Assembly (NCBI GenBank): GCA_950295325.1
Contig: OX485806.1
Location: forward strand, 38,938,001 to 39,002,000
DNA length: 64,000 nucleotides
Direction of reading: 5' to 3'
Source: Polytrichum commune
Taxonomy: Eukaryota; Streptophyta; Polytrichopsida; Polytrichales; Polytrichaceae
Shown: piece after piece, positions 29,176-53,178 of the stretch
Numbering within the stretch: the first letter of the stretch is position 1
Layout: every line of letters begins with the position of its first letter
Notes under the pieces: generated by a model
Databases searched by the model: none
What the model was told of the DNA's origin: nothing
Seen by the model: the letters and a program-made list of their open reading frames with translations, nothing else
Made by a program: the position numbers and the translations under genes

Positions 29176-29630
29176 CCCTAACATTACCAAACCCAATAGA
29201 GTTGAATGCGGCGCACACATCGAGGCCTGTCAGAGCCTCTACAGAGCAGCAGACCCTCGACCCCCGGGACCCGCCCCCGCCCGCAACCGGTCCCCTGCCG
29301 CCCCGGGCCAGAGTGCCTCGCTGGACATGCCAGCCTGTCCGTTGAGGCGCCGAGGACGAGGTGGACCGCCACGTTGTCCGCCTGTGGGTCCCGATCATCC
29401 ACGGAGGCGTCGTCCTCGCCAATGGGACGTGTCATGCATGCGGATGGCATGCTCGGGGTCTTGTTACGGGTACATCCCATCTGCCTCTACCATACCATCC
29501 CATGGAGACCATGGGCGGCATCCACCCATCGAGGTGAGGCCTTTTGAAATATGTATTTAAACCGCCTCCTAAAGCGACGCCCCTCTTTCTTTGTAACCTG
29601 CACGCTCCGGAGGTCTGCCGCCTCCAGCAG
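29176..29630 (+). repeat. Left terminal inverted repeat of element A (455 bp)
   Basis: Very GC-rich in its middle third. It matches 40094-40638 inverted, except for one 90-bp unit duplicated in the right copy. The inner margin carries tgtaacctgcacgctccgg, a variant of the element's GTAACATG word. Mutator elements usually start transcription in such repeats. Confidence 0.95.
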
Positions 29631-29684
29631 CGATGGCTTCTCTTTCTCCGTAACATGCACGCTCCGCTTCTCTGCCGCAATGGA

Positions 29685-29780
29685 GCGCAACAAGCGATCG
29701 CAACAATGATGCAGGGAAGGGAGTACGAGCAAGATTAGCATCTTCAGCGCTTCTGGACGAACACGGTGGTTACATACCAG
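29685..29780 (+). promoter_or_regulatory. Candidate untranslated leader exon of the large gene, copy 1
   Basis: gcaacaagcgatcgcaacaa to acataccag is followed by a strong donor, gtaagt, at 29781. The block recurs nearly unchanged at 30456-30549, where an acceptor-like ttttcag precedes it. It lies next to the left inverted repeat, so it could be the first exon spliced to the coding exon at 31794. No RNA evidence is available. Confidence 0.4.
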
Positions 29781-29989
29781 GTAAGTGACACAACTTTTCA
29801 GGAAGCATCGTTTCTAATTGAGTGTAACCTAATAATTAGCGCCCCCCTTTGGGTTATTGTTGTAGTACATTAGGTCCCACAACCTGATGGGAATGCAACA
29901 ATGATGCAATAAAGAGTTCTTTGTGTTTAATATTTGTTTGCAAATGTCTATTCAACCATCATTTCTTAGTCATTGTAACATAATCAGTG

Positions 29990-31450
29990 CATGCACTTGA
30001 CTGTCCTTCACTTCCTGGTCGATTTAGAGGGTTGATTTGCTACAGTGTGGCTTTATTTTTTATATTTCTTTGCAACACTCCATTCAACCTTCCCTCCTGA
30101 TTCATTGTTAGCTAAACATTATGTGGAGTAGAGTGTTGTTCACTTCCTGGTCGATCTAGAGGGTTGATCTGCTACACTGTGGTTTTTTTGTTTTCTTATT
30201 TCTTTGCAACAATCCATTCAACCTTCCCTCCTGATTCATTGTTACCTAAACATTAGATGCACGTTGTTCACGGCCTGGTTGATTCAGAGGGTTGATTTCA
30301 TACACTGTGGCTTTTTTTTTCCATATTTCTTTGCAACAGTGCATTCAACCTTCCCTCCTCGTTCATTGTTACCTAAACATGTGCTGCACGTGAGTGTTGT
30401 TCACTTCTTGGTCGATTTAGAGGGTTCATCTGCTAAATCATGCCTTCATTTTTCAGCAACAAGCGATCGCAGCAATGATGCAGGGAAGGGAGTACGAGCA
30501 AGATTAGCATCTTCAGCGCTTCTGGACGAACACGGTGGTTACATACCAGGTAAGTGACACAACTTTTCAGGAAGCATCGTTTCTAATTGAGTGTAACCTA
30601 ATAATTAGCGCCCCCCTTTGGGTTATTGTTGTAGTACATTAGGTCCCACAACCTGATGGGAATGCAACAATGATGCAATAAAGAGTTCTTTGTGTTTAAT
30701 ATTTGTTTGCAAATGTCTATTCAACCATCATTTCTTAGTCATTGTAACATAATCAGTGCATGCACTTGACTGTCCTTCACTTCCTGGTCGATTCATTGTT
30801 ACCTAAACATTAGCTGCACGTGAGTGTTGTTCACGGCCTGGTTGATTCAGAGGGTTGATTTCATACACTGTGGCTTTTCTTTCCATATTTCTTTGCAACA
30901 GTGCATTCAACCTTCCCTCCTCGTTCATTGTTACCTAAACATGTGCTGCACGTGAGTGTTGTTCACTTCCTGGTCGATACAGAGGGTTCATCTGCTATAT
31001 CATGCCTTCATTTTTCATAGTTGTTTGCAACAGTCCATTTAACCTTCCATCTTCATTTACTGTAACCTAATCATCAGCTGCATTACATCCTGTCCATTTC
31101 CTACTGGGTTTAGGCTAGTGATATGCTAGGGTTTGATATCTTCTTTCATATTTCTTTGTAGTAGTCCATTCAACATTCACTCCTGATTTACTAAAACCTA
31201 ATCTTTAGCTGCACTACATCCTGTCCACTTCCTACTAGGCCCAGGGTATTCTAAGGACTCATTTCATGTTTCATATTAGCTTCTGCTAGTCCATCCAACC
31301 TTCCCCCTCCTCATTTACTTCAACCTAATTATTAGCTGCACTACAGTGTCGTTGACATTCTGGTGGGTTTAGGTGAATTATATGCTAAAATGTGCCTTCA
31401 GTTTAGGCATTTGTTTGCATCAGACCATTCAACATTCGGCAGGTTCAAGC
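29990..31450. repeat. Left subterminal tandem array of element A
   Basis: Units of about 120-130 bp containing tttctttgcaacagtccatt, caaccttccctcctgattca and cacttcctggtcgattta are repeated at least eight times with divergence. A block of about 340 bp (29687-30024) is also duplicated at 30456-30793. The reverse complement of the same unit forms the right array at 39597-40035, so the pair extends the inverted symmetry of the element. Confidence 0.8.
30456..30549 (+). promoter_or_regulatory. Candidate leader exon, copy 2
   Basis: Second copy of the leader block with acceptor-like ttttcag in front and donor gtaagt at 30550. Whether one or both copies are used is unknown. Confidence 0.4.
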
Positions 31451-31793
31451 TTAATCTCGAGCACTTGGTCGTTAAATGGCTTAATCTCCGTTTTTGTCCA
31501 GTATCTTCAACGCCACATGACAAGAACGTGCACGCACGGTGGTTACAGTAGGTGTCTGCCATACGTGTAGCATACAATACTGTAACATGTCGCATTCTCC
31601 GGTCTTTTCACGGTCCTTTTTATGCAGTTTAGGGATTCGTGTAAGCACAGATTGCACTTTTTTGTATTCTGCTATGTGTTTCCTGCATTATATGTGTTGT
31701 TGTCATTTGGGTTTCTTGGAAGCAGTGCACTCATGTACTCTCAGATTCTAGGGTTTAGGGTGTGTAGGTGGAGCTTGCAGGCAGTGTGTTAGG

Positions 31794-34700
31794 ATGGCCG
31801 TTGATGCTGTCCCTCCTCCGGAGAGCTTCGGCGACCTGCATCCTCGGCCCTTGCGCCATATTCCCCGTCCTGTCCTAGGGCCTCTGAGTGCGTTGTTTAT
31901 GGCTATTGACTCACATTCTTCTTTGCAGGATATGGCTTTCCAGTCAGAAGCGGCTATGGCAGATGACGACGAGGTGGTGTTCTACGTCAACAGGGATTCA
32001 GCGGGGTGGGTGGAGCAACATGTCAGGCGAAGAGTCTATATTGAGTTGAAGTTGGAGTCGACTCGCAACCGCACTCGAAATACTCACAAGGCCAGAGACG
32101 ATTGGTTGTGCCTCTACTGCAGAGGATCCTTTCCTAGCAAGCTGCGGCTCACAGATCACAGAGTTGGAGGCTGCCCATGTGGACCTGTCACATCGACTGG
32201 AGCGAAGTGGCAACTTCCTGTCTACCCAAATTTGAAGACTGCAAAACAAGGTAAGGACCTTAAACTTGCACTGCAACGCGGGGAGGGATCTGTGTGGGAC
32301 AACCTCCACGACAAAGAGGTTTGGCTAGACCTAAACCCTGAACTTAGGGATGTCACTCTGCCTCCCCCCGGAGCCAGAGTGCAAGAGCGTTGGTTCATGG
32401 AGGCGACGCTGGAATCTCTAACGGCGTATCCCGCACCAAGAACAGATTTCCGTCCACAACCAAAGTGCAAAGCGCCACTCCCTCCCAGGCGAGACCCTGC
32501 TCCACGTGCGCCAGCAGCTTTCGTGGACCTTCCAGATGACTCAAGCGACGAGCCACAAGTGCCACCTGCCCGGCAGAAAAAGCGGAGCCATGCGGAAATG
32601 GCGGAGGGCCACCCAGTCTACCATTCCAGCAGGCAGTTCAGAGCAACGCACCGGAAACAAAGCCATGGGCAGCCGCGACAGAGTGCTGCCGGAGATGGGC
32701 GAGCGCCAACCCCTCCGCGAGGCGGGCATCCTTCGGCTTCTGGTCACAGAGGTCCACCTCTCTACCCCATTTCCGTTACACCGATCCAAACACGCAGCCC
32801 CTCACCAGAGGGCTCTGCAATTTTGGCGACTCTTCCTCCTGTACTCCATGTTCCACCCTCTCCTGTTGCGCACTCTCCTGCTTCCCATGTGCCTCCCTCT
32901 CCTGCTGCTCCCTTTCCTACTTCTCCCTCTGCTGCTGCAGCCTCTCATGCTACTCCTTCTGCTGCTGCTCCCTTTTTTGCTGCTCCCTCTCCCTCTGCGT
33001 ATGTGCCTCCTTCCCTGCCTGCTTATGCGCCACCCTCTCCTGCTGTTGCGCATGTCCCGACCGGTGCGCCTACGCCACCTGTTGCCCATATGGAGACCCC
33101 AAGAGGGGAGCAGGATTTGGCAACGGGCCTTCGAAACGAGCGACATGCTTTCTACATGAAAGCCACAAGTGCTGCGCGCGGCACTGTGAAGATGGATACT
33201 CCGAAACCACCCCTAAGGCCTCCAATCCAACCCCCCGGCTTGTTCCATTTGTTGGCATGTGGATTGCTGGTTTTCGATTTGGAGCACGGCAAATTTGATG
33301 ACTTCGAGGCGGAAGTTGCAGAATGGAAAAACCACCCAGCGGCCATGGACAGATTGTTTGCCGCATACGGCAGGTTTCATCTTCCTTCCCATCAGGTAAC
33401 AAGTCAATGTTTTCCATCCCTGCAATTTACGATATTCTGCATTTGCTCTTTAGGACTATTAGGAAAATGTTTTCAGTGTGGACTATAATCATGTTGTCTG
33501 GCTTGTTGTCTCTTTGTTTGTAACATCTATTGAGGTGTCGACATGAACTCGTAACATGAGTGACCGGTTATTAATGAACTCGTAACGTGTTTTTTTAGCT
33601 GTTATTGAACTCCTCACATGTACTATGCTCGTAACATGTACTGTACTTGTTGTTGCAGGGCAAGGAAGAAGTAACACCGCCAATCACAGAGGCTGTGGTG
33701 GGGGTCGTCACGAGGATTGCGGAGGCTCCTCACGCCATGGAGGTGGAGATTGCTGATCTCATCGCTTACGTCCAAGACATCTTCGTCGTGCGGGAGGTGG
33801 CGAGAGATCGAAAGCGGTGGGAGGATGACCGCCTCAAAAAAATCAGCGAAGCCATCGCCAAAGCAATGAAGGAGTGGGATGATGAGCATTACCCGCGTCT
33901 CCTGCAAGCTTATTGGGGTTGGCACCCATTCTATTCCTCTTTTCTTGCCAACCCTCTGTGTGTGAACTTCTTACCCACGTACCCTTTGTTACATTCAGCC
34001 GTTGAGGGTTGGGATGTACATGAAGTCGTATTGCAACAATCCCAGGTTACAAGGGTGTACCCGGTGCCATGGTCCGTCCTGCTGCTGAGATGTTTTCTTA
34101 AGTTTTATACCCCATTGCCCCCAGTGCTATTACACCCGCAGAATGGACTCACCGGAGCGAACATTACAAAATGGTTGAGGGACGCAAAAGAGGTCGAGGG
34201 GGATGGCCCCAAAGCTTGGCGTTTGGCAACTTCACACTTGAAAGAAGAGGGTTTCTTGTTGTTTGCAGGTGCCAGGCCGGTGGATTCGAAACACCAGTGG
34301 GTTGCAGATGTAGAGGCTGCTTGGTTTAGTTTGAGAAATCCCAGCCCCCAATGGTGGAAGGAGTTACGGCATTGGTGCAACTCAACCCAGTTTAGGGCTG
34401 TGCAAGACATGGCCCTCCATGACAAGCAATTGTGGATGAATGCATGGGTGATGCGGAATCCTCCCACTTCGTCTGCACCCTCCCTTGCACGTTACGAGTG
34501 TTGGTTACAATACCGAGAGGAGCTGGACATTGGATATGTCCTCGCCGACCCAGGTAAATTTGTGGACATTCAGTTGTAACATGTATCATTTTTTTAAACA
34601 TATCTTCCACATGTGACAAACATAACAATCACAATGTCTGTATTGGTGGGCAGATGGTATGGTCACACCGCTGGCACCCACAGAGTACTTGTACGAGCTC

Positions 34701-35243
34701 CGGGCTATTGCAGAGAACATCACCAGTCAACGTTGCCAAGATGCGGACGTACACAAATCACAAACCACACTCCTCGAAGAGGACATTCATCATTGTGAGC
34801 AGCAAGTTACAAATGCTACCACCGCCAATACGAGTTGCGATCCTAGCATACGAGAAGCGTCGGAGGTTGTGCGGCCGTTGGTAGAACCAGAATCCAAACA
34901 CATGGCTAATGATCCCCCCTCCGCGGATGTAGGCCCCGTTGGACCCGCATGGCACATACCTATGACTCAAGAGAGGACTTTGCAGGACTTGCCCAGTCAA
35001 TTGGAATTGGACTGGACAGATTCGGTGCCATCTACTCCCACGGCCTCGCCTGCTGCAATTCGGGTGTCATCTACTCCCACGGCCTCGCCAGCTACTCCCA
35101 TGGCCTCGCCTGCTGCAATTGCGGAGGAACTCGGAGCGGTAGGGCCATCTCAGGTTGTCGAACCACATGTAGTAGTGGCCGTCGACACGTTTGCTGAAGT
35201 ATCACAGATTGCAGCAGAGGTTGTCATGGATGCTACTCAGTAG
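31794..35243 (+). CDS. Element A large accessory protein with CCHC-type zinc finger, about 1,028 residues
   Basis: The exons are 31794-33395, 33659-34553 and 34654-35243, with GT/AG introns of 263 and 100 bp and consistent phase (3,087 coding bases). I do not recognise the family. Near residues 106-127 there is a C-x2-C-x12-H-x4-C finger (CLYC...DHRVGGC), identical in spacing in element B. Residues of about 200-430 are basic, then proline/alanine-rich and probably disordered. Exon 2 encodes an ordered, tryptophan-rich region (RKRWEDDR, GWHPFYSSF, YPVPWSVLLLRCFLKF, WWKEL..WCNST). The C-terminus has a conserved IPMTQERTLQDLPSQ block. The start ATGGCCGTTG is the same in both elements. It is convergent with the transposase. 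A DNA-binding or anti-silencing role is inferred by analogy with VANDAL vanC and from the motif density, not from homology. Confidence 0.85.
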
Positions 35244-36165
35244 ATGCTAGGTTACAGGTTTAGATACATTTTACATGTGTGGACAATTGTTAGTGCAGTC
35301 ATAGACTTGGTGGGAATTAGTGATTGGGTGGGCCTTCAATAGAAGGACATGGAAAAATAGAGTTCATACGCAGGGAAACACCCTAAACCCCAAATCTGTA
35401 CTTTGTGTAACATGTGTAACATGGCCCATATTGTTTACTGGAGAAAGAATGTCAATCTTCTTGTCTACCCAGTCGACCAGACTCTGGACCTTGTGTGCTG
35501 CTTTCAGTTCTTGCACGCTACATCTACTGTACCCGTAATTTCACTGCGAAGTTCAGTTGCGAGTGGTGCGTGTTGAGTGGCACGGTTAGTAAGGGTTGAA
35601 TTTTTAACTTGTTACTTCCATGCAGTCGGCTAGAAGTAACCTGTGGAAAGTATGTTACGTCTTCAATTGCAGTTAAGTAATGCATTACTGGGTGCTCGTA
35701 ACATGCGGTATAGCTTGGACGCAAGTAAGTAAGATGTACATGAATGTTCAATTTCGCGTAACATGTACTAACTCAAGTCCAAGAGTTTTGTTAGCGAGAG
35801 AGAGAGAGACAGAGAGGCAATGTTACATAGATACAGAGGTTCATAGGAGGAGGAGCTATACGATCTCACAGCAACAAAAAGAGTAGCTATGGAGTTCAGT
35901 TGAAATGTATTACACGCCGAGCAGAGTATGTTACGGCTTCAAGTGCAGTTCAGTTCTGAATTGAAAAATGATGCACAACTTGAGTGGACATGGCAGGCTT
36001 CTGGAGGTTGGAGAATAAGGGTATATGCTATAATAAAATACAAACGGTTGAAGAGTAACCTTAGCTACAAATGTAACACTCAAAACAACTCCCACAAACT
36101 GGGAAAGTCTGTCATTCATTTGAAAACATTCAGAATGTAACATAGCAATGTCACTGAAATTCAAA

Positions 36166-36525
36166 CTAAGGAGCCCAACTTGGTCTATACACCTTAATTG
36201 GTCGTTGGTATGCCAGCAGCGGGCCGTGTGGGGAAGGCGTCACTGCAGGTGGCGGGGTGGTGAGTTGTTGGACAGCCTGAGCATGTCGTCGCCTCAGTCG
36301 GGCGCCCTGCGCTGGTGATAGTGCCCCATGCACGAGAAGTTTGGGGGTAGTGGATGCCGGAACTTCGGCCACGGACTGGTCCTCGGCGAGGCGCAGAGGA
36401 GTTGTTGGCGGTGTGTAGAACTCCTCATCGCTGGACATGTCAAAAACTGGTCCAATGACATCGGGGCACCTTTGGAACCATTTCCAAACAGCAGCACTTA
36501 TGCGTGCTACGTGAAGCGATGCCAT
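36166..36525 (-). CDS. Element A small conserved protein, 119 residues
   Basis: A single-exon frame lying downstream of the transposase on the same strand, 181 bp after its stop. It begins MASLHVARISAAVWKWFQRC, continues with an acidic-to-proline segment (SSDEEFYTPPTTP) and ends AYQRPIKVYRPSWAP. The counterpart in element B (123 residues) keeps both ends almost unchanged while the middle varies in length and sequence. That pattern suggests selection on the protein. There is no known domain, membrane segment or signal peptide. It might be a cofactor of the transposase or of the large protein. Confidence 0.8.
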   Translation of the reverse strand: MASLHVARISAAVWKWFQRCPDVIGPVFDMSSDEEFYTPPTTPLRLAEDQSVAEVPASTTPKLLVHGALSPAQGARLRRRHAQAVQQLTTPPPAVTPSPHGPLLAYQRPIKVYRPSWAP

Positions 36526-36706
36526 GGTGTAGGGAATGAAGTAGTTGGAAGCAAAATGACATAAGGCGGGGCAACAAGATAGGGTGGAAGTGTAGAAGAG
36601 GAAACCGTCACTGCGTTTATATGGGCTCAGGTGGAAGTTCCTAACACATGTGCCAAAACCCTAAACATGCGCCTCCTCTGTAACATGTTCATGTTACACA
36701 GCATGT

Positions 36707-39493
36707 CTACCTCTGACGTTCCAGAAAGTCCTTCCTCCGCTTCAGAGACATGTTGCTGCCATCGTCGTTGGGGCTGAAATGTAGTTCCACTTGTGATGGC
36801 TCCACCAAGCCATGTTTCATTTGAGCCAATAGTGTTTGTTGTTTCCCCCGTACGATGTGGAAGTCAGCCAGGAGATGTTCTAGCAAGAAAGTATCCCCCC
36901 TGGCAGCATCCATGAATTCGGTAGCAAGGTTACGGACAGTGGTTTCCATGTCCTCCCCACATGGGGTCATGCGTTCGCCAACAGTAACTTGCAGACCGGT
37001 TGCGGAAGTGGAAGTTGGTCCTGTATCCTCACATTCCCCTGGGAAATGTACGACCGGATCCAACATGTTCGCGCGACCTCCCTCACATGTGCCTGAAAGG
37101 GACCCGCAGTAACGTGTGATTGTTCCTTCAGCAAGTTCGGGATGGAGTATCATGAGGACTTTTATCTGATGTTTGCATATGTTGCCCTTAAGTGCCCACA
37201 CACAATCGCAACAACCCCATTCGCACTCCGGGCTATACACAGAGTATAACTTGGTTGCGTTGTTCATGGACGTTACCAATGCTGGACCGTCGGTTGCAAT
37301 AGGGAGGGTGACACAATTGTCAGGGATTTCCCTAGCTTTCAGCACTGCGTTGATAACAAATTGCTCTTGTTTCAAGTTTGGGACAAACCCATGTTGTTTC
37401 CTCATTGCCTGGTACCAGTAGTGGGAGAGAATTTCCTCTGTCAACTCGTATATGACCCAATCCAAGCGACGTCCATGCGCTCTACCTTTTGATGCACGCA
37501 ATGTGGCTTTGAGGTTTGAGTGGTAGCTCTCAATTGCCGCATTTGTGTCCTGACCAGCATATGGCAAGTTACGATGGCCAACAACCCACATATGAGTCTT
37601 GTCTGCCCATTGTCTGTCAAAATAAGCCCAGAAATTGCTCACAATGGGGAAGCTATCTCTAAGAGCATTCAATTGCCGAATGGCCCAAGGCCCCATTCCA
37701 TCTCCTTGGGGGCACTTCGTGTCGTACATAATACGACCTAAACCCTTGAGCACACCAGCCCGTATAGCATGGTCTTTGATTTTCCCTATCGCTTGCTTCA
37801 ACCATGCACGACGAACATGCCAGAGGCACAAGAAAACTCTAACTCCAGGCCACACGGATTGCAATCCACCAATCTCAGCATGCGCACAATCCGTAATGAA
37901 TGCATTCGGAGCCCAATCATGTTGTAGGGACGTCAATTTTTTCGCAAGTGCCTCCATCCATGGCTCAAGATCAGGTTGTTTGGAACTAGACGTAATAATG
38001 TATGCCACAGGCACTCCATTCAGCCAGTCATCAAACACCATGAAGGTGTACAATGGAAACTGCAAGGGGAAACAAAACAACATGTTACGATTTCAACTTC
38101 TGAAAAAAACCAAGCGTGTTACAGCAAACTTGCTAGCATGGACATGGTCTGTAACATGATGACAGTGGGTGTATGGTTCAAACAAACCTTATTCTCATTA
38201 GTTGCAAATGTGGCGTCAATGGAGACGGTTTTTTTGTGCCCGTGCTTTAGCATCATCTCTTCTTGCCAAGACGTCTGAATGCCAATTGTGAATGGCATAT
38301 TATCACGTGTAATAGCCCCCCGAACATGTACGCCTGACTCCTTGTAGTAGAACACGAGAGAGGGATGTTCCTGCACCCACATGCGTACAGATTTTGCGTC
38401 ATTGTTGTCACGTTTGTAGGTTTCAATTGCGAGATGTCCGGCGACATTACGGATATCCTGCTCAGAAATAAAGAAGTCTCGGGTGAGCTCCTCCCCTTGC
38501 TCGCACGCTTCCATGAAGCGTTTTCGGTGTTTTTCCATTATTTGGGGGACCGACAAACCCAACCGCAAATGACACATGATGAATTCCCGTACTTGCACTG
38601 AGAGATGGCATGAGAATCTACTCTTATGGCCAATCTTTGTGGACCCATGGCAGAATATCCCATTCAGGTTAACATGCTTCATTTCATGGTATGTTATTTC
38701 TGCAATTAAGGGCTGCAGGTACAATTGTTTCACCACAAATCTACACTGGCACCCCCTTCGTTGTCCTGATCCACGCATCCTGGCTGATGTGCGTGGTCCT
38801 GTGTGGCCTTTCCCGTTTGGAACATATTTGCCCTTCACGTCGAGCTTTCGTTTATTCTGTAACATGTCCTTTGTAACCTCTGGTATGTGCGAGGCATTGT
38901 CATTTGGCCCATACTGACAATGATACCTGGTAGTCGGGCATAGAGTGAACAACATAAGTCAGATTTATATGGGAACATATAAGATGTAGTTCTGTAACAT
39001 GAAAACTTGCACAATGGAATTCAAAATACATGTTACAAACACACCTCATGACGGTGGAGTAGCTGTTCCAACGGGGGAACGTGAGTTTCCCCCGTTGATT
39101 CGACGGAGTGCCTTGGCAAACAAACTTGCAGGGTCCATCAATGCGCGCTTCCTCACCTTTCACGAAATCATGTATTCTTACCCATGGTATGTACGCCACC
39201 GAAACTGGACCATGAGACCTGCGACCGTCCCACCTCCCTTTCGTGCGGATCTGGGTAGCCCACGTGAGATCCTTGTGCATGAAACTGCCTGGTGCAGGTG
39301 TCTGGACTAAACCGCGGAGCCGCTCAAAGTCCGCCTTGTGTACCTCCAGGTATGTGGAGTCGTAGGAAGGCTCTACGGCACGGGACATACGATTTGCATG
39401 TTCAAAACCTACATGTTCACCTGGAAGAAGTTGTGCGTCGGTATGCAATGCACCACATGACTCAACAACGCCGTCATTGACACAGTCACCCAT
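36707..39493 (-). CDS. Element A Mutator-like (MULE) transposase with SWIM finger, 846 residues
   Basis: The exons are 39493-39045, 38926-38188 and 38059-36707, all GT/AG, with 2,541 coding bases and an intact frame. The N-terminal part has a cysteine/histidine region (RGCQCRFVV...CHG) likely to bind DNA ends. The catalytic core reads SIDATFATN (D387), FITDCAHAE (D453) followed by C474-x2-H477 in LCLWHVRRAW, and AAIESYHSNLK (E573): the MULE DDE triad with its usual C-x2-H insertion. A SWIM finger C680-x-C-x8-C-x-H693 follows. This is the order in mudrA-type transposases, which cut and join the element at its terminal repeats and create 9-bp duplications. It starts about 0.6 kb inside the right repeat and is probably transcribed from it. 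Confidence 0.93.
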
Positions 39494-39596
39494 TTAGGTC
39501 TATATACCTCTATGGAAGAGACCTGCCCGGTACCAGTACAGGAGTTGAAAGAAAATCGATGCTTGAACCCAGATCCGGAATTATGTGTGAAAAACG

Positions 39597-40035
39597 CCAC
39601 CAGGGAGTGAAGGACACTGTGGGGCAGCTAGTGTTTAGGTGGCATGAATGAGGAGGGAAGGTGCAGTTGGTCTGTTGCAAAGAAAAATGGAAAATGTAGC
39701 CCCACTCTAGCAAATCATTGCTCTAGATCCATCAGGAAGCGAAGAACATTGTAGTGCAGCTATTGATTAGGTAACAATGAATCAGGAGGTCCGGTTGAAT
39801 GGACTGTTGCAAACAAATATGAACAATGAAGCCCCACTCTAGCAAATCATTGCTCTAAACCCACGCTAGAGTGGAGGAGAGTGTAGTGCACCTAATAATT
39901 AGGTTACAGTTGATGAGGAGGGAAGGTTGAATAGAATGTTGCAAAGAAATTTGAAAACCGAAGCCACAGATTGGCGCATCATTCTTTGATTCCCATCAAT
40001 CCCTGCAAGACACTGTAGTGCGGCAATAGTCCAAG
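39597..40035. repeat. Right subterminal tandem array of element A
   Basis: Four units of about 118 bp, with gccccactctagcaaatcat and ggagggaaggttgaatag. They are the reverse complement of the left array. The array lies just upstream of the transposase start, where a promoter or transposase-binding function is plausible. Confidence 0.75.
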
Positions 40036-40093
40036 ATGGCTAATCCTGCTTGTAATCCCGTCCCTGCATCGATGTTGGGATCGCAATGTTGTA

Positions 40094-40638: not shown

Positions 40639-40649
40639 GGCAAGAGAGG
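40639..40649. repeat. Overlapping 9-bp target duplications of elements A and B
   Basis: The 11 bases ggcaagagagg contain A's right duplication (40639-40647, ggcaagaga) and B's left duplication (40641-40649, caagagagg). Only these bases separate the two elements. Confidence 0.95.
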
Positions 40650-41872: not shown

Positions 41873-44625
41873 ATGGGATCCTTTGTCACAGATGCCGTTG
41901 TTCAATCCCCTATTGTAATGCACAACGAAGACCACGTTCGCGTACCAACACTTCACCCACCGCAACACATGGAGCCTTCTTACGAATCTACATACCAGGA
42001 GGTACACAAGGCAGAGTTTCAGCGGATCCGTAGTTTAGTTCAAACTCCAAACATAGGCACTTTCATGCATACTGATCTCACATGGGCAAGCCACATGCAT
42101 ACAAAAGGGAGGAGGACTGATCCCAGGACGCTTGCTTCAATGTCGGTTGCGTATATACCTTGGACAAGAGTCGAGGATTTTGTGAAGGGCGAGGAGGCGC
42201 GCAGTGATGCTCCCTGCAAATTTGTTTGCCAGGGTGCTCCATCAAACGACAAGGGGAAACTACTATTCCCTCGGTGGAACAGCTACTCTGTCGTCCTCAG
42301 GTGTGTTTGTAACATGCAAGTTGTTTTCCACTGTGCATGTTCGTGTGTTACAGTATGTTGCCAAATTCCAACCTTGTTCTATATGGCTCTCACATCCGCC
42401 ACCTGCTGTTCTCCCCATCCCACAGGTATCACTGTCAATATGGACCAAATGACAATGCAAGCCACATACCACTGGTTACAAATGACATGTTACAAAAGAA
42501 ACGGAAACTCGATGTGAAGGGTAAATACATTCCAAATGGAAAGGGGCACACCAGTCCTAGGACATCTGCGAGGATGCGAGGCTCAGGGCAACGAAGGGGA
42601 TGCCAATGTGGATTTGTCGTCAAGCGGTTGTACCTGGAACCTGCAGTGGCAGAAATAACATACCACCAGATGAAGCATATGAACCTCAATGGATTTTTCT
42701 GCCATGGTGCTATAAAGAGTGGCCATAAGAGTAGATTCTCAAGCCATCTGTCGCCACAAATTCGGGAATTCATCATGAGTCATTTGCGATTGGGATTATC
42801 TATCCCACAAATAATGGGCGCACATAGGAAACGGTTCATGGAAGTGTGCGAGAGAGGCGAGGAGCTGACTCGGGATCTTTTCATTTCCGAGCAAGACATC
42901 CGTAACGTTGCGGGCCGCCTTGCAATAGAGACCTACAAACGCGACAACAATGATGCAAAATCTGTGCGCATGTGGGTGCAAGAACATCCTGAGCTTGTAT
43001 TCTATTACAAAGAATCGGGGTATTCTATTACAAAGAATCGTTCGCGGAGCTATCACACGAGACAATATTCCGTTTACAATAGGCATCCAAACATCTTGGC
43101 AACAAGATATGATGCTCAAGCACGGGCACAAAAAAGCCGTCTCCATTGACGCCACGTTTGCAACTAATGAGAACAAGGTTAGTGCCCATAAGATTTCCTA
43201 CAGCAGCATGTTACGTACCTGCACTGCGGCGTATTTTGCTTGAGATTGAACGTGTGATTCTCTTTGTTGTTGCAGTTTCCTTTATACACCTTAATGGTCT
43301 TTGATGACTGGCTGAATGGAGTGCCTGTGGCGTACATTATCACTTCTAGTTCCAAGCAACCCGATCTGGAACCCTGGATGAAGGCGCTTGCCACCAAATT
43401 GGTGTCAGTGCAAGGAGATTGGATGCCGAATGCATTCATTACGGATTGTGCCCAAACTGAAATTGGGGGCTTGCAGTGTGTATGGCCTGGGGTGAAAGTA
43501 TTCATGTGTCTCTGGCATGTTCGTCGCGCATGGTTGAAACAGGCGGTAGCAAAAATAAAAAATCATGCCATTAGAGCTGTTGTGCTAAAGGGGTTGGGCC
43601 GTATTATGTACAAAACAAAGTGTCCGCCGGGAGATGAAATGGGGCTTTGGGCTATTCGGCAGCTGAATGCTCTTATGGATAGGTTCCCTGTTGTTGACAA
43701 TTTTTGGACTTACTTCAACAAACAATGGGCAGACAAAACGCCCATGTGGGTTGTGGGGCATCGTAACCTGCCATACACGGGCCAGGATACAAATGCAGCA
43801 ATTGAGAGCTACCATTCCAACCTAAAAGCCACCTTGCGGGCATCAAAAGGTAGAGCGCATGGACGTCGCCTGGACTGGGTGATATACGAGTTGACAGGGG
43901 AAATTCTCTCCCATTATTGGTACCAGGCAATGAGGAAACAACACGGGTTTGTCCCAAACTTGAAACAAGAGCAATTTGTTATAAATGCAGTGCTGAAAGC
44001 GAGGGAAATTCCTGACAGTTGTGTCACTCTCCCCATTGCAGATGACGGACCAGCATTGGTAACATCGAAGACCAACCCAACTAAATTGTTCTCTGTCTAC
44101 AGCCCTGACTGTGAGTGGGGTTGTTGTGATTGCCTGTGGGCGCTAAAGGGTAACATATGTAAACACCAGGTGAAAGTTCTCATGATACTCCATCCAAGCC
44201 TTGCAGAAGGCACAATTACACGTTACTGTGGATCCCTTGCAGGCACAACTGAAGGAGGTCGTGGTAACATGCTTGATCCTGTTTTACATTTTCCAGGGGA
44301 TTGTATTGATACTGGGCCACTCTGCCCAACCCCAGCGCGTGTGCATCCTAGTGGTAGCCAATATCTCACGCAATCTGGGCAGGACATGGAAAAACGAGTT
44401 CGTAACCTTACTGACGAGTTCACGGACGCTGCCAGCGGTGATAGTTTTTTGCTGAAACACCTCCTGGCTGACTTGCACATCGTACGTGGGAAGCAACAAA
44501 CATTGTTGGCTCAGATTAAACATGGATTGGTGGAGCCATCCCAGGCGGAGGTGCACTTTCGACGTAACGACGATGGCAACGACATGTCCCTGAAGCGTAG
44601 GAGGGACTTCCTAGAACGTAGATAG
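41873..44625 (+). pseudogene. Element B MULE/SWIM transposase with a 13-bp net insertion
   Basis: The exons are 41873-42300, 42426-43177 and 43276-44625, at the same splice positions as in A. Exon 2 is 752 bp against 739 in A. The 13-bp excess comes from a local repeat: tattctattacaaagaatcg is present twice at about 43006-43043, and it shifts the frame just upstream of the catalytic core. The catalytic residues (SIDATFATN, FITDCAQTE, C-x2-H, AAIESYHSNLK) and the SWIM finger are all preserved downstream, so the break is recent. The start MGSFVTDAVVQS aligns with A. As written, the frame ends at about 43149. A sequence error cannot be excluded, although a 20-bp local repeat is unlikely to be one. 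Confidence 0.88.
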
Positions 44626-44808
44626 GTGAAGCCAGTCAAACATGTTGTAACGTGTTGTAACATGCGTTTGTTACAAGTGCGTCCCCATGTTTGAACACCT
44701 CACACGTGCAGGTGGACCCTGGTGCCAATATAAGGGCCGGACGTTCCTTCCACTTGCACACTTCCAGCCAACCTTCTTTCTCTCTTTGTTGCTGCCTTTT
44801 CCCTTGCC

Positions 44809-45180
44809 ATGCCATCTCTCCACGTTACACGGGTCAGCGCAGCTGTTTGGAAGTGGTTTTGTAGATGTCCAGAGACCATTGGACCAGTTTACGACACTTC
44901 CGAGGATGAAGAGTTCTTCACACCTCCAACAACTCCTCCGCCTGCTTCCCAGCAACAGTGTGTGGCTGTAACCGCGGGATCCCCCACAACGTTGCTATCT
45001 CCAACATATGGCGTGCCAAAGCTGCTATCACCATCGCAAACGGTTCGACTCCGCCAGCGACATGCTGAAGCCGTTCGACAACTCACAACCCCAGCCCCCG
45101 TTGTCACACCTTCCTCACACGGTCCACTGAAGGCATACCAACGTCCAGTTAGGGTTTATAGGCCAAGTTGGGCTCCATAG
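44809..45180 (+). CDS. Element B small conserved protein, 123 residues
   Basis: Single exon, 183 bp after the transposase stop on the same strand, just as in A. It begins MPSLHVTRVSAAVWKWFCRC, has SEDEEFFTPPTTP and ends AYQRPVRVYRPSWAP. Differences from the A protein are concentrated in the middle. It remains open while both neighbours are broken. The function is unknown. Confidence 0.8.
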   Translation: MPSLHVTRVSAAVWKWFCRCPETIGPVYDTSEDEEFFTPPTTPPPASQQQCVAVTAGSPTTLLSPTYGVPKLLSPSQTVRLRQRHAEAVRQLTTPAPVVTPSSHGPLKAYQRPVRVYRPSWAP

Positions 45181-45794
45181 TGCAACATGCAGTGAGCATG
45201 GTGCTACCTTGTAAACATGGTTTTGAAATGAGGGAAATTGTCTGTGTTTACGGCCTTGTAACGCATTTGTAATGTGTGGGGTCGTTGTAACATGATCAGG
45301 ATGTTACAATGTAGCAAATATGCACCCCTATCGGATATGTTTTGTGGTATTTCTAACATGGTACAATGACATTGCTCTTCACTTTGCAATATATAATTTC
45401 ACCATCACATTACAGAATTGCGTATCACATTACAGCATTCCACCTTTGTTACTCGTTCCATGTGAAATTGCATACAAGGCAGGGCAATACCTGGTCGGGA
45501 GCATTATTTTATATACATGATCTCTTAATATCTCTTACAGCTATTCAACGCCGTCACACAAAACTTGGAGTCATTCCCTGTATGCATAACATTCATGTAA
45601 CATAAGAAGTGAATGTATGTCAAATTTTTTTTGCCAATGTTGTAGATGTTACACTTTGTACACATGTACACACGGGTGTAGATCGTATGGGAAAGGTTAC
45701 ATAGTCATTAATTCTAACCCTGGTTTCCTACCCTAAACCCACCCTAACACTATGATGACTAAGTCCACGGCGCGGTTGTAACATGACCCAAATT

Positions 45795-48700
45795 TTAGCC
45801 GTTCGTGTTTGTGCTCAGCGGGTCTGATTCTTGTTCAGGTAGCTGCTGTGTGGCGTTCTTGACGGCCTCTTCTGCAATTTGAGAAACTAAAACAAATGCG
45901 TCGACTTCCATGACTTCTGGATTTCCTACAGTAGCAGCAGCCATTGCAGGGGTGGCATTAGGTGACACTGAATCCTGCCAGTCAAAGTCCATTTGACTGG
46001 GCAGGTCTTCCAAGGTCTTCGATTGGGTCATCGGTATGACGAATGCTGGGATGGCTTGCGAGCCAGCAGGTGTAGAGGGGGAGTCGATTGTCACGCGCGT
46101 GGTTTGTGGCGGGGGCTGGTCGACATCCGACGCCTCTGCATTGCCCACATTGGCGGAGCTTTCACGAAATGACTCCTGCACCTCGCCTCTCTCTTCGATT
46201 TCAGGTCCACATTGCATTGGCGGATGCACTTCAAAATGCTCTAAACGCTCTCACTGCATATTCTCAGCAATATGACGGAGCTCGTACATGTACTGACTAC
46301 GCTCCAGCGGGGGCACCATGATATCTGCCAAACCATTCACCCATTGGAGTCAATGCTGTAACATACAAGGGCCGGCATTTATGACCCATAACATTCCATA
46401 ATCATTGCAGCTAACCAAAAATACCTGGGTTTGCAAGTATATAGCCAATGTCAAGATCCTCTCGATGTTGTAGCCAACGCTCGTAACATGCGAGGGGGGG
46501 GCGAATAGGACTTGGGCCGATCACGAATCACCCATGCTTTGAGCCATGCTTGCTTGTCGTGAAATGCCATGTCTTGGATGGCCCTGAACCGGGTTGAGTT
46601 ACACCACATGTTCAACTCCGCCCACCATTCAGGGGTGGGTTGTATTAACTCTTGTGTAGCATCGTCCACTTCTGCCACCCATTGCTCCCGCGATTGCACG
46701 GGTCTAGCGCCAGCAAACATGAGGAAACCTTCCTCTTTCAAATAGGTAGTTGCCAACTGCCACGCTCCCGAACCCTCACCATCGGCTGCTTGTGCGAGCT
46801 TCGACCATTCCGTAACATTGGGAACAGTTGAGCCATTGGAAGGGTGTGATACCACAGGTGCAGATAGGGTGTGATACTTGAGGAAACAACGAAGAAGGAG
46901 GACTGACCATGGCACTGGATAAACCCTCGTAACATGGGCTTGTTGCAAAACCAGAGCATGCACATCTGAACCTTCAACAATTGAGTGATGCAGAGGGTAG
47001 GGAGGTGTGAAGCCATGGCAGAGAGGATTTGCTACAAAAGAGGAATAGAAGGGATGCCAACCCCAAGTGGCCAGCAACAAGCGAGGATAATGCTCATCGT
47101 CCCACACTTTCATAGCCCTGGCAGTGGCCTCGTTCACCTTAGCCTGGCGGTCGTCCTCCCATTGTTTTCTTTGTTTCATCACCTCTCGCATGAGGAAAGT
47201 GTGCTCGACATACTTTAGAAGAGCACCAACCTCGGCGGCCACAGCGGCAACGTCATGGATCTTGCTGACAGTTGCGACAACCACCTCTGTGATTTGGGGT
47301 CCCACGTCTGGTCTGGCCTGCATCAGCATGAGCTCTGCCTTGTTACAAAGACATCTCAACCCTAAACCCATGTTACATATATAAAATGTGAGTATTTATA
47401 AGGCACGACTAAACCAACTTCTGCAAAGCCTGTCCTAGGATTACAATTTTTTTAACTGAAACACATAACCCAATAGCAACGACCCACCCAAAAACTGCAG
47501 ATTCCGAGTCCCAACAAAATGTGATAGAAGATTGAGAGTCTGAAAACAACCTAGCATGTGCACAATTTAGCATAACAAATACCCAAACCCATAATCTCCT
47601 CCTCCTCCATAACAGAGGAATGATGCCGAGAAATCAAGTGTGGACGTACGGCAACGTCAAGTACAATGCCTGGACGCTACTTAGTACTACTCCCCTCACC
47701 CAAAATGCGAGTCAGAATAGATTCAACAAGAAATTCGGGACAGAATTTGATATCCACATAACAAAACATCTACCTCCACCTTCAAATAGATAGAGGCCGA
47801 CTCTCCTGGCCACATACATAGTAACAAGGCCTTGGAGTATATATACGGAGTGCAACAAATAAATCAAATAGAAGGTGGCGGTTGTACCTGATGTGAAGGA
47901 GCGTAGAATCTTCCATAGGCTGCAAAGAACCTGTCCATGAACGCCGGGTCGTTCTGCCATTTCTGCACCTCGTCCTGGAATGCTTGAAACTCACCGCACT
48001 CCAAATCAAACTTCAACAAACCACATGGCATCAAATAAAACAAACCTGGAGGTTGAATTGGGGGCCTCAAAGCCGGCTTCGGGGTGTCCATCTTCACGGA
48101 GGCACGCGCGGCACTTGCAGCTTTCACATAGAAGGCTTGCCTATCCTTCCGTAGCCCCACCGCCAAATCATGTGAACATGTGGAAGCATGCGTAGGAGAG
48201 ATCGGCGTAACATGCGGCATAGCAGGGGGCATAGCAGGGGGGACTAGGAGGGGGACTAGGAGGAGGCAAAATGGCAGCCCTCTCTGGGGAGGGGCTGCGG
48301 GATTGGATAGGCGTAACATGGAGGGGGTGGGGAGGTGGTCGTCGGTGGACACCATCCGCAGCTGCGTGACGTGTGCTCCGTGACGGGTGCGGTGAATGTT
48401 GCGACTGGTGCATAGGGGCGTGCCTCCTCGGTGCAGTGTTGAATTGCCGGCTAGAACAAAACACCCGGTGACCCTCGGCCATCTGCGCATGCGGTCGTTT
48501 TTTGGGCCGGCTAGGAGGTGTATCCGGTTCTTCCTCGTCATCATCTTCAATGACCACGAAGTCAGCTGCCTCGGATGCAGTATGCTGCTTGGGGGGGCGT
48601 TGTGGTTTAGGCTTTTGTTGTGGCCGCACATCTCCAACATGGGCTGGTGAAGCAGTCAAATTCTCCACGGTGGGCTGCAAGAATCGTCGTAGATGCACTC

Positions 48701-49271
48701 TGGCTCCAAGGGGGGGGTAGATGACGTCCCTTAGTTCGGGATTGAGGTCAAGCCAAATGGAGTTGTCGTGCAAGCTGCTCCATACAGACCCATCGCCACG
48801 CTGCAAGGCAAGTTTGAGATCCTTGCCTTGTTTCGCCGTCTTCAGATTCGGATACACAGGGAGCTCCAACTTCGAGCCCCTTGAGTCCACAGGTCCACAC
48901 GGGCAGCCAACCACGCGGTGGTCCGTCAACCGCAACTTGCTTGGAAAAGATGCCTTGCAATACACACACAACCAATCATCTCGCGCTTTCTGGTTTTCCC
49001 TACATCGGTTGCGAGTGCATTCTAGTTTCAATTCGATGTAGACACGCCTCCTCACACGCTGCTCCACCCAACCAGCCGAATCCCTGTTCACATAGTAGGT
49101 AACCTCGTCGGCATCGGGTGCTCCTGTATAAGAATCCATTTTCTGCAATGAACGATGCAAGTCAATAGCGAGAAACAACGCCGTTTCAGGCGCGAGCATG
49201 AATTGCGGACGCAGCGTGCAAGGTCGCAGGTGGTTGGTGCCCCCCATGGGAGGAAATTCGCCAACGGCCAT
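45795..49271 (-). pseudogene. Element B large accessory zinc-finger gene, with two run-length frameshifts and a nonsense codon
   Basis: The exons are 49271-47888, 47317-46425 and 46324-45795, with splice sites matching A. The finger CVYC...DHRVVGC keeps C-x2-C-x12-H-x4-C spacing. Exon 1 has one extra base in a six-G run at 48237-48242, and exon 2 has one extra base in an eight-G run at 46494-46501. Removing one base at each restores full agreement with A. Exon 3 has an in-frame TGA at 46253-46251, after which the frame stays open and conserved (IPMTQSKTLEDLPSQ). Both frameshifts fall in homopolymers, where sequencing errors are common. The stop codon is harder to explain that way. Confidence 0.8.
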
Positions 49272-50356
49272 GGCCAGCAAGGCTAGCGACAGCGCCTCTC
49301 TTACACTAAACTGTAAATACTATAGACATACATATACAATGCCTTCAAGAAAGAGAGGTGCCTAAACACACATGAAAAAAAAAAACCTAAACATACAAAG
49401 AAAATAAGTACCTAAACACACCGAGAGAACCCTAAGCCTGCACCCTAAATGCCCAATGCGTGCCAAAAGAAGTTGAGGAAGGAGGAAATAAATGGACCCT
49501 AAACAGAATAACGACAAAAACACATTCCCAATGCGATATGCGATGGCAGAGGAGAAGTTGGGGGCCCGAAAAAGGTGCCGGCTTGCACACAACGCGAGGC
49601 TTGTGAAAGAGGAGGCTTCTGCTGAATGCTCCGGACAAATATGATTCGGGAACAAGACACGGGCTCCTCAGAAGAAGAGGATTCGGCACAGAGCAGGCGG
49701 CTGCCACAGAATGCGAGGAGATTGGAAAGAAGCGGGCGCTGGTACAGAGAGAGAATCTACGAAAATAAGTGCCAAGTGCCTACGAAAATGAGGGGCCCGC
49801 ACATAAGAGGCGGATGCCGCAAAGAAGTGCCGGGAAGTGCCAACAATCCTAGTACGAAATAACTGAAACCCTAATGCGCAGCGAAAGAACAAGAAGAGGG
49901 AGGAGAAAAATGGAGCATGCACATATGAAGGGGGGAGGAGAAAAATACAGGGGAAACATGGAGTAGGTCTCACATGTTACAACAACGTGCGGCTGGTGGC
50001 CGTTGTAACCACCTATGTCGCCGCGTTGCCACCGTGCAAGCCTGAATGTACTACGGCCCAGTGTGGGCCCAGTCAACGCCAATCAAATTTGTTGTGTGAA
50101 CAACAACACGCACGTTTGTTCAATAAATCAATGGCATACCAATCGAGTGGTGTGTGCCATAGATAAACCAGATTTGGGCATTGCCAGGCTGCAGCCCAAA
50201 AACCAGATTAGGACTTCATTTAGCAGGTTTCATTAGTTATTGACAAACATGCTTTCACATTTGAAGTAATATGTGTTGTCCTTAGAAAAAGCACACTGCA
50301 AAAGACTCATATGACCTGGAAGACCCTAAAATTTCCCTGATATAACATTCTTTAAG
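49272..50356. other. Upstream region of the element B large gene
   Basis: No gene. Contains gaagtgccgggaagtgcc, echoed at about 51735-51755, and a catgttac word at 49973. Likely leader and promoter sequence read toward the large gene. Confidence 0.35.
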
Positions 50357-51483
50357 AAATTGATAAATAAACTACGTGAAGGAAAGTAGAATCCTATACA
50401 AGTTTAAATAGACCCGCATTGGCTCTTATAGGAGAATTGGTAAACCTATTTTCGGAATGTCCAGATGTATGTGAGAATGTACCTGGACGAGCTCAACTGA
50501 ACATCCACTTTCAGCATGGATGAAGACCACAGGCGGGACAGTTTTTAGGCGTATATACTACCTGTACACAAATTTTTAAACATGAGTGCATGTTACAAAA
50601 AGTTAAGTAACGAAATCATAGATCTGCAAAGTGTGATAGAGTCCAAAGATTCAAATGATGAGTTCATGCAACCTGATTGTTGTAAATATAAACTACCAAT
50701 AGTATGACCCCTAAACTCTAAACCCCACCCTAAACCCTAAACCCAAATTGATAAATAAACTATGTCAATGAAAGTAGAATCCTATACAAGTTTAAATAGA
50801 CCCGCATTGGCTCTTATAAGAGAATGGGTAAACTTATTTTCGGACTAATGAGATGTATGTGAGAATGTACCTGGACGAGCTCAACTAAACATCCACTTTC
50901 AGCATGGATGAAGACCACAGGCGGGACAGTTTTTAGGCGTATATACCACCTGTACACAAATTTTTAAACATGAGTGCATGTTACAAAAAGTTAAGTAACG
51001 AAATCATAGATCTGCAAAGTGTGATAGAGTCCAAAGATTCAAATGATGAGTTCATGCAACCTTATTGTTGTAAATATAAACTACCAATAGTATGACCCCT
51101 AAACTCTAAACCCCACCCTAAACCCTAAACCCAAATTGATAAATAAACTACGTCAATGAAAGTAGAATCCTATACAAGTTTAAATAGACCCGCATTGGCT
51201 CTTATAAGAGAATGGGTAAACTTATTTTCGGACTAATGAGATGTATGTGAGAATGTACCTGGACGAGCTCAACTAAACATCCACTTTCAGCATGGATGAA
51301 GACCACAGGCAGGACAGTTTTTAGGCGTATATACCACCTGTACACAAATTTTTAAACATGAGTGCATGTTACAAAAAGTTAAGTAACGAAATCACAAATC
51401 TGTAAAGTGTGATAGAGTCCAAAGATTCAAATGATGAGTTCATGCAACCTGATTGTTGTAAATATAAACTACCAATACTATGA
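50357..51483. repeat. Three tandem copies of a 388-bp unit with telomere-like ends
   Basis: Copies start at 50357, 50745 and 51133, exactly 388 bp apart, at aaattgataaataaact. Copies 1 and 2 end in ctaaactctaaaccccaccc followed by taaaccctaaaccc, a telomere-like run. The third breaks off after ccaatactatgac. Each copy carries one catgttac word (50589, 50977, 51365). Copies are nearly identical, so the amplification is recent. Confidence 0.92.
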
Positions 51484-52259
51484 CAGTGCAAAATTGCAAG
51501 CCTCAATGTGGAAGCAATCTGTTGCATGGGGATTCTTCAAAGTGGAGCACAAGAAAAACAAGTCTGTCACAGCCTTACCTCCAAGTAGCCATTCAATACA
51601 TACCATGTAGTTGGATAACAAAGCCACCTGCACATCACTCGGTAGATGAGAACATCAATGAGTTGCCTATTTCAAGTGTAACTTTGGTGTATACTAAACC
51701 TATTGACGGCCACAAAATGAAAGGATTCCGGAGAGAAGTGCCGGGAAGACATAGGAAGAACTACAATACTCATTAAGAAAGCCTGAACATGCACGAAACG
51801 CCAGATGCACCTAAACGCCACAGCAGAAGAGGATGGAGGGGAAAAATTTCGGGAAAACATGTTACAACAACAACCGTTGCTTGCCCCTGTAACCACATTT
51901 ACATGCAGCTAGCGCTCGTGCTAAGTTAGTAAGTCTCCCTGCTTTTTGTGGTACTTCAGCCCAAAACCCACACAATGACGAGGAACTCAATGACCCTTAT
52001 GCGCCAGTTAGAAGTTCCTTAACCCAATGAAGTGATGTGTAACATGACTGCTTTATGACAAAACAGAAGGAGCAAGTACGTTTGGTACACAACAATCCTA
52101 ATGGCACGATCTTCCATTGACACGCCTTGGCACATGATTGGTGCATTCTATCATTTCAAGGAAGACACTCAAGTGCCAACTGAGTGCGGACTGTACAAGA
52201 AATGAGTAGGTTACGATCAAAGAAGTGATGGCTGATTGGAGGTTTAAGCAACAAAAAAA
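51484..52259. other. Non-coding interior of element B
   Basis: No gene. It has GTAACATG-type words at 51858 and 52039 and a second version of the gaagtgccgggaag block. Confidence 0.4.
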
Positions 52260-52790
52260 GGTAAAGTGATGTAACTCACCCTTGCTGTAACCACCGTGTT
52301 CGAAGCACTCCAAAGTGCGATCTCCCCAAACCCTTGACTCCATCATTGCTGCAATCGCAGCACGCTCCTAAACCCTAAACCCGGAGTCCCTATTGAAGGA
52401 GCAGTTCAGGAAGAATCAAGTGGGGTGGCTGAAGGGAGGTTTATTTCAAAACACAATTGCAAACCATCACTTCAATGAAGACAGTCTAGTGCGGCACAAA
52501 TTCGGACTGTACAGCAAATTCCTAGGTTACGATCATGCAGAAATGATGGTTGCTTAGAGGTTCAAGCAAAATGGTGAAGTGATGTCACTCACCTTTGTTG
52601 TAACCACCGTGTTCGAAGCACGCACTCCACAGTGCGATCTCCCTAACTCCTTCACTGCGATCTCCCAAAACACTTCACTCGATCATTGCTGCAATCGCAG
52701 CGCGCTCCATTGTGGCAGAGATCCGGAGTGTGTATTGAAGGAGCAGGTTACAGAGGATGAAGCGGGGTGGCCGAATGGAAGTTTGAAAAC
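52260..52790. repeat. Duplicated subterminal block at the right end of element B
   Basis: About 180 bp (52268-52450: ctgtaaccaccgtgttcgaa, cattgctgcaatcgcagc) recurs with changes at 52568-52790, where it runs into the inner end of the terminal repeat. The first copy carries taaaccctaaacccgg where the second has the terminal-repeat text, as if the block had been copied out of the terminal repeat. Confidence 0.65.
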
Positions 52791-53169
52791 ACCCATGGAG
52801 TGCACAATCCCCGAGGTTGATTGGATCTAAACCCATCGATGGATGTGGGTGATGGTCCACATGATACTCCATCCAAGACAATGGCATGTGCTCATGAGGG
52901 GGGGTGCATGGTGGCCTCGGGAGGTGGGGTGGAGCCGTCCCCTTCAACGGGTGCACAGCCTGGCAGCCAGCGTGGCGCCTGGCAAGGCTGCCAGCGTGGC
53001 CGCGACCGTCACACGCTGGCGCCCGAGAACGGGTGCAGGCCGGGTGGGGATGGGACCGGGCTCCCGGACAGGGTGGCCTCGGCAGCTCCGGGATCGAGAC
53101 AGCAGGGTCGTTTCTGACACCTCGATTCCCTAAACTGAGTAAATACCATTGGGTCTGGTAATGTTAGGG
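52697..53169 (-). repeat. Right terminal inverted repeat of element B
   Basis: 473 bp, inverse of 40650-41122. Ends gtctggtaatgttaggg, followed by duplication caagagagg at 53170-53178. Confidence 0.95.
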
Positions 53170-53178
53170 CAAGAGAGG

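Follow-up and report, generated by a model that had tools for sequence, protein, structure and literature searches.

Two adjacent Mutator-like elements (MULEs), here called A and B, lie in a 64,000-nucleotide stretch of the Polytrichum commune genome (contig OX485806.1, positions 38,938,001 to 39,002,000; hereafter the window). They represent a MULE lineage with its own accessory gene set, in which the transposase is accompanied by a small gene and by a large zinc-finger gene, and this gene set itself is firmly shown. The noncoding DNA of the lineage also carries a scattered short word, CATGTTACA. By analogy with VANC, the anti-silencing protein of Arabidopsis VANDAL elements, we propose that the finger protein may bind such words and work like VANC, without detectable homology to it, a reading to which we give a probability of roughly 0.45.

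Element A (29176..40638, transposase on the minus strand) is a complete MULE. Its 427-bp terminal inverted repeats (TIRs; 29176..29602 on the plus strand, starting 5' with CCCTAACATTACC, and 40212..40638 on the minus strand) are 100% identical, and it is bounded by a perfect 9-bp target site duplication (TSD), GGCAAGAGA, at 29167..29175 and 40639-40647. Element B (40650..53169, transposase on the plus strand) is a complete MULE with broken genes; its 473-bp TIRs (40650..41122, plus strand, and the inverted-repeat match at 52697-53169) are likewise 100% identical, and its perfect 9-bp TSD, CAAGAGAGG, lies at 40641..40649 and 53170-53178. The left TSD of B overlaps the right TSD of A by 7 bp, with the two insertion points at most 2 bp apart. 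One element therefore inserted into the duplication left by the other, and this near-coincidence suggests a local target preference.

In each element, the three-exon transposase gene is followed on its own strand by an intronless small open reading frame (ORF), and a zinc-finger gene of three exons converges on them from the other strand. All three genes are open in A, where the transposase (846 amino acids, aa) occupies 36707..39493 on the minus strand (exons 39493-39045, 38926-38188, and 38059-36707), the small gene (119 aa) 36166..36525 on the same strand, and the large gene (1028 aa) 31794..35243 on the plus strand (exons 31794-33395, 33659-34553, and 34654-35243). The B transposase lies at 41873..44625 on the plus strand (exons 41873-42300, 42426-43177, and 43276-44625), and its exon 2 is frameshifted by a 23-bp tandem duplication at 42997-43040 (net +13 bp). 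The small gene of B (44809..45180, plus strand, 123 aa) is open, and its large gene (45796..49271, minus strand; exons ~49271-47888, 47317-46425, and 46324-45796) is broken by frameshifts in exons 1 and 2 and a TGA stop in exon 3. A preliminary description of this DNA had proposed the mirror layout, with splice sites and phases shared by A and B, and the coordinates, sites, and phases were all recovered here. Because the TIRs of B are identical though its genes are broken, B was probably mobilised recently with an enzyme supplied from elsewhere in trans, unless its TIRs have been homogenised; the best other listed genome match to its transposase exon 3 is 92%. Across 3.3 kb spanning transposase and small gene the two elements are 75% identical, and pieces of the large gene are about 69-77% identical; their noncoding DNA is mostly unalignable.

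The gene set recurs in the genome. A search of 407.8 Mb (64 contigs) with exon 3 of the B transposase, in which 93 of 688 candidates were scored, returned at least 118 places; 61 of the 118 matches were at 61% identity or more, and some matches are pieces of one copy. Eleven elements were fetched, namely the ten top-scoring places after B (E01-E10) and one further place (E11). The seven exons of the three genes were matched in all 13 elements (A, B, and the 11 fetched) with exon coverage of 73-100%, and the splice sites are conserved across the lineage. Both TIRs were located in 11/13 elements; the arms are 91.6-100% identical and, in the nine elements other than A and B, 263-731 bp long, and their sequences differ strongly between most families of the lineage. 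Eight of the 11 two-TIR elements (A, B, and 6/9 others) have perfect TSDs of 9 or 10 bp, two have near-perfect ones (one mismatch in E03, one slip in E08), and E10 has none. The expected co-occurrence of the accessory genes with long inverted repeats is thus seen in the fetched copies, with the gene set in 11/11 and both TIRs in 9/11. The proposal that the family shares a conserved gene set holds for every fetched copy; it needs correcting in that the small gene was seen only in the A/B lineage and that B is not intact. In one fetched element, E02, inserted DNA amounting to some 14.5 kb and containing reverse-transcriptase-like ORFs (read by eye) interrupts the sequence, and additional DNA bearing a SWIM-like ORF truncates the large gene.

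Per Pfam, the transposase matches the MULE DDE transposase family PF10551 in both A (E=8.9e-09, 36.1 bits) and B (E=3.3e-07, 31.1 bits; cut-off 27.6). A SWIM pattern, C-x-C...C-x-H, can be read in it by eye, and the Pfam SWIM family matches in B only, below the cut-off (E=0.076). The best-matching named relative of the transposase comes from a moss, Ceratodon purpureus (48%); other named relatives come from Cryptomeria japonica (32-33%), Riccia sorocarpa (32%), and Rehmannia glutinosa (30%). The large protein consists of one C2HC-type finger, a proline-rich linker, and a conserved exon-2 domain. The finger has the spacing C-x2-C-x12-H-x4-C read in the preliminary description, and its residues are invariant in 17/17 rows of the finger alignment. 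The small protein has the conserved ends also noted there. Its gene starts with an ATG in 13/13 elements, has a TATA-like string 80-172 bp upstream in 13/13, and is truncated by stops in E07 and E09. The possibility that the small ORF is the last exon of the transposase was ruled out by the transposase stop and the separate ATG in all 13 elements.

The accessory exons are under purifying selection. Maximum-likelihood estimates of omega, the ratio of nonsynonymous to synonymous substitution rates (dN/dS), with frameshifted exons omitted and stops masked, were 0.26, 0.28, and 0.32 in the three exons of the large gene and 0.34 in the small gene, so the condition named at the outset as a refutation, evolution without constraint, does not hold. 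For the transposase, omega was 0.54-0.55 in exon 1, 0.124 in exon 2, and 0.158 in exon 3. Exon 1 thus evolves much faster than exons 2 and 3, while the TIRs vary widely between most families, the pattern that would arise if the TIR reader were encoded by exon 1.

Neither accessory protein, both unrecognised when first described, has a convincing match in Pfam, NCBIfam, or PDB. Profile searches of PDB with three accessory alignments gave nothing below E=0.4, and Pfam hits to HSA, BEN, zf-C2H2_4 (9/17 finger rows), and DUF6248 (6/10 small-protein rows) were set aside as unconvincing (best E 0.04-0.09). Nine protein-database relatives of the A large protein (536-599 aa, mostly matching exon 1) were found among the candidates scored. 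The possibility that the accessory genes are ordinary host genes was addressed for the large protein, and no named host gene appeared among the candidates scored for the large proteins of A and of a more distant element, D5 (the small protein was not searched there); for D5, no protein-database relative at all was found among the candidates scored.

Five such distant elements, D1 to D5, have transposases 42-45% identical to that of B. D1 and D2 are 98% identical to each other where they align, D3 is partly masked, and D4 is degraded. A convergent gene with a homologous exon-2 domain is present in D1, D2, and D5, which make up two families, per both profile search (E=1.9e-6, 1e-7, and 8.2e-7, respectively) and hhalign (D5, E=2.6e-5 over 246 columns; D2, 6.1e-6). 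The large genes of these three elements also contain a C-x2-C-x12/13-H-x5-C finger, read by eye and backed in D2 by hhalign (9e-6). No large gene was detected in the degraded D4. The small gene is absent from the profile matches in D1, D2, D4, and D5 and borderline in D3 (E=0.064). By reading, the TSDs of D1, D2, and D5 are perfect 9-bp duplications; the ends of D3 and D4 were not located. The ORFs adjoining D1 look, by eye, like a plastid EF-Ts/S1-domain protein, which points to a green plant as host.

The second feature of the lineage lies in its noncoding DNA. Motif counts refer to the 11 complete elements, leaving out E02 (nested insertions) and E11 (left end not found). These are not 11 independent families, as E08 and E09 are near-identical and E05 and E07 are identical over half, and the noncoding counts of E10 are low because its coding mask is too wide (13 TGTAACAT inside). 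The strongest word shared by their noncoding DNA is CA[T/G]GTTACA, and CATGTTACA is scattered through it in 11/11 elements. Counted as TGTAACAT, the word occurs 9-18 times per element in noncoding DNA versus shuffle means of 0.17-0.65 (maximum 3 in 40 shuffles), and an unguided 8-mer count places it among the top six in all 11. Transposase intron 1 has 16.4 sites/kb and the convergent spacer 6.4/kb. Subterminal DNA, in contrast, has 0.5-1.1/kb against 3-16/kb in introns and spacers, and TGTAACAT is absent from 22 TIR ends of 250 bp (11 elements) and from the full TIRs of A and B. Within the window, 32 of 33 TGTAACAT sites fall inside A or B, two of these in transposase exon 2, leaving one in 39.8 kb of flank; a further site occurs in 14.3 kb of the E02 nested insertion. 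Five TGTAACA sites lie in the convergent intergenic region of A (35244..36165), two, one per orientation, in its transposase intron 1 (38927..39044), and five in the convergent intergenic region of B (45181..45795). Pooled over related copies, word orientation is 31:29 in the spacer, 12 sense to 21 antisense in transposase introns, and 15 sense to 6 antisense in large-gene introns. The five spacer sites of A share only 0-1 aligned columns with B, E04, E10, and E07 (39-46% identity); the word therefore persists while the surrounding sequence turns over. Two word sites in transposase intron 1 are positionally kept.

The distant families are enriched for similar but different words, e.g., CAGTGTCACA and AGTGCTACA. 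For instance, AGTGTCAC occurs 17, 15, and 9 times in D1, D2, and D3 versus shuffle means of 0.47, 0.40, and 0.23, and 0-1 times in elements of the A/B lineage, while D5 has 15 copies of AGTGCTAC (shuffle 0.1) within tandemly arrayed ~21-bp units that lie between its transposase and its large gene. In an alignment made post hoc, the family words look like variants of CA(G)TG[T/C][T/C]ACA. An enriched word occurs wherever the large gene with its finger was seen (the A/B lineage, D1, D2, and D5); D4, which has a word but no detected large gene and looks degraded, is an exception.

One element additionally records an exchange of the large gene. Trees built from transposase exons 2-3 plus the small gene and from the large gene agree except on E05 and, with little support (56-58%), on the position of E03 and B. 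E05 groups with E07 in the former and with E10 and E11 in the latter, at 100% each, and approximately unbiased (AU) tests of each data set against the other tree gave p values of 1.5e-78 and 1.5e-58. Identity between E05 and E07 is 97% in the stretch of left TIR, transposase, and small gene and 98% at the right TIR, versus 72-77% across the large gene. From the identity pattern and the trees together, the TIRs therefore stayed with the transposase while the large gene was replaced. E05 is a chimera with E07-like TIRs, transposase, and small gene and an E10/E11-like large gene, and this exchange, one event, fits a large protein whose target word is common to both families.

In the mechanism that we propose, the transposase would cut at the TIRs, which is where MULE transposases act. 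The large protein would recognise a short DNA word, which for the A/B lineage is CATGTTACA, mainly in introns and intergenic DNA, and this binding would hold the element's chromatin active or reactivate it, in the manner of VANC; the small protein may be a lineage-specific partner. We infer both the large protein as the binder and anti-silencing as the outcome from sequence. The scattered word lends indirect support to the earlier suggestion that the accessory proteins may resist silencing. The absence of the word from TIR ends in the A/B lineage argues against the transposase as its reader. A fuller version would have self-targeting, sequence-specific anti-silencing in MULEs through a finger protein unrelated to VANC, with protein and word (CATGTTACA, CAGTGTCACA, AGTGCTACA) diverging together and the gene exchangeable as a module between word-sharing families; this we offer tentatively and regard as somewhat doubtful.

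A number of observations weigh against the proposal that the large protein is a VANC-like word binder. The VANC domains DUF1985 and DUF287 were not matched in Pfam scans (E up to 1, one up to 10), and the AlphaFold2 models are poor (pLDDT, the predicted local distance difference test score, 41 for large-gene exon 2 over 9 rows and 45 for the finger region over 17 rows). VANC21 sites are single-orientation and often arrayed, and most sites here are not. In the distant elements, the finger profile alone scored 0.002 and 0.0011 in D1 and D2, near a stray 0.0045 from another profile; in D5 it found no match, exon 1 gave a weak alignment at its end only (E=0.018), and the finger was read by eye. 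Nor are the words confined as might be wished. The overlapping word GTAACATG also occurs in coding DNA of the A/B lineage (0.54/kb versus 0.08/kb in flanks), and AGTGTCAC is above shuffle in host flanks (7 in the 39.8 kb window flank, 6 in 43.7 kb of other flanks), although at about a sixth or less of its density in D1-D3. Of the D1 word sites, two fall within exon 3 of the transposase and others within ORFs of the large gene, and each TIR has one; a word in ORFs and TIRs weakens the case that the transposase is not the reader. The D5 word AGTGCTAC was chosen by resemblance, other words of its array being commoner, and D4 contains AGTGTTAC six times (shuffle 0.3) though its large gene was undetected. 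Closer pairs of elements share more spacer sites (B and E08, 3/5). Finally, the three closest pairs have higher dN/dS, up to 0.78 (E08/E09), with few changes counted, as expected if recent copies decay.

Wherever the large gene was found (the A/B lineage, D1, D2, and D5), a transposase accompanies it, so either protein may read the word. The transposase, or a complex containing it, could thus be the binder, with the large protein a transposition helper and anti-silencing coming from the transposase, as for MURA, which is said in excerpted literature to hypomethylate TIRs. The single word in each D1 TIR arm, the word-bearing D4, and the terminal sequence CCCTAACATTACC, which includes TAACAT, all favor this. 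Nevertheless, we consider it unlikely in view of the word-free TIR ends and sparse subterminal sites of the A/B lineage, where the word stays constant while the TIRs differ strongly between most families. Co-occurrence is the sole link between protein and word, so a host factor (an activator, an insulator, or a silencing reader) could also bind the word, with the large protein doing something unrelated, e.g., choosing integration sites. A telobox-like sequence, AAACCCTA, is enriched 5' of the large gene (1.18/kb pooled over the 11 complete elements), which suggests that host factors are used. However, if one host factor were the reader, the word would not be expected to vary from family to family in one genome, and the window flanks are nearly free of TGTAACAT; we judge this explanation less likely again.

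The location of the word in introns and 3' spacers, together with its sense bias in large-gene introns, would also suit an RNA-level signal for splicing or polyadenylation of element transcripts. TGTAA is also similar to a polyadenylation signal used by green algae. Such a role is very improbable given the opposite lean in transposase introns, the even spacer ratio (related copies in both cases), and the use of another word in other families. The most improbable of the explanations considered is that the large and small genes are captured host genes, i.e., Pack-MULE cargo retained by chance. Capture of host DNA is frequent in MULEs, per excerpted literature, but both genes are present in 13/13 copies with omega well below 1, a homologous large gene accompanies transposases only 42-45% identical, and the candidates scored include no named relative of the large protein, the small protein not having been searched there.

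Several other features of the window can be recorded. Element A contains subterminal arrays of ~132-bp units at 29919..31216, with related repeats near its opposite end (39644-39965), and B contains a 388-bp tandem array at 50357..51484 (2.9 copies) with one TGTAACAT site per unit (50590, 50978, and 51366). Outside both elements, a 2.4-kb near-palindrome at 6553-8984 has arms 95-97% complementary and includes 30-bp tandem repeats and long ORFs, and a tRNA-Leu gene lies at 14395-14476 on the minus strand.

A literature search by titles and abstract openings found no published description of the gene set; within that scope, these elements belong to an ordinary superfamily, the MULEs, with an accessory gene set found nowhere described and an unexpected noncoding signature. 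The closest comparison is with the VANDALs. Per excerpts of PMC5735166 and PMC10398659, VANDAL21/Hiun is likewise a MULE with a transposase and two further genes, and its VANC binds a 9-base word, YAGTATTAY, that is dense in mainly noncoding DNA of its own element, and it causes loss of methylation; VANC6 has a word differing from YAGTATTAY. The same excerpted literature describes VANC as having conserved domains and a repeat-bearing variable stretch, as the accessory protein here does, and describes short words dense in noncoding DNA, as in the A/B lineage, with another word in related families. In contrast, a C2HC-type finger takes the place of DUF1985 and DUF287, the TIRs are long (427 and 473 bp in A and B, 263-731 bp in nine others) where those of VANDALs are degenerate, and the word is common to the whole A/B lineage in both orientations. 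Because those domains are unmatched and the TIRs are long, these elements are not VANDALs, and the sequence lends no support to calling the large protein a VANC. In D4, which has two copies of CAGTGTTACA, CAGTGTTAC is one base off the VANC21 word form CAGTATTAC, a weak resemblance noted post hoc.

Maize MuDR, per excerpted literature, is also a long-TIR MULE with a second gene, mudrB. Its genes are convergent, and MURB is a small protein, whereas the convergent gene here encodes 1028 aa with a finger; MURB is compared by description rather than by sequence. En/Spm belongs to the CACTA superfamily and has subterminal sites. Its TnpA is described in excerpts as an element-encoded activator correlated with demethylation, and unlike the TnpA sites those found here are mostly internal. 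Plant MULE groups in Table 1 of PMC6446971, as excerpted, likewise have an antisense accessory ORF, either with a plant mobile domain (PMD) or of unknown type, beside the transposase, in their case a SWIM transposase. Unlike those with a PMD, the elements here gave no match to that domain at E up to 10. Few plant elements have had their self-encoded anti-silencing studied in depth, and this lineage bears on how frequently such systems arose and on how a protein and its target sites evolve in step. It offers several families in one genome, an accessory protein of no recognised family, predicted family-specific target words, and one natural exchange of an accessory gene.

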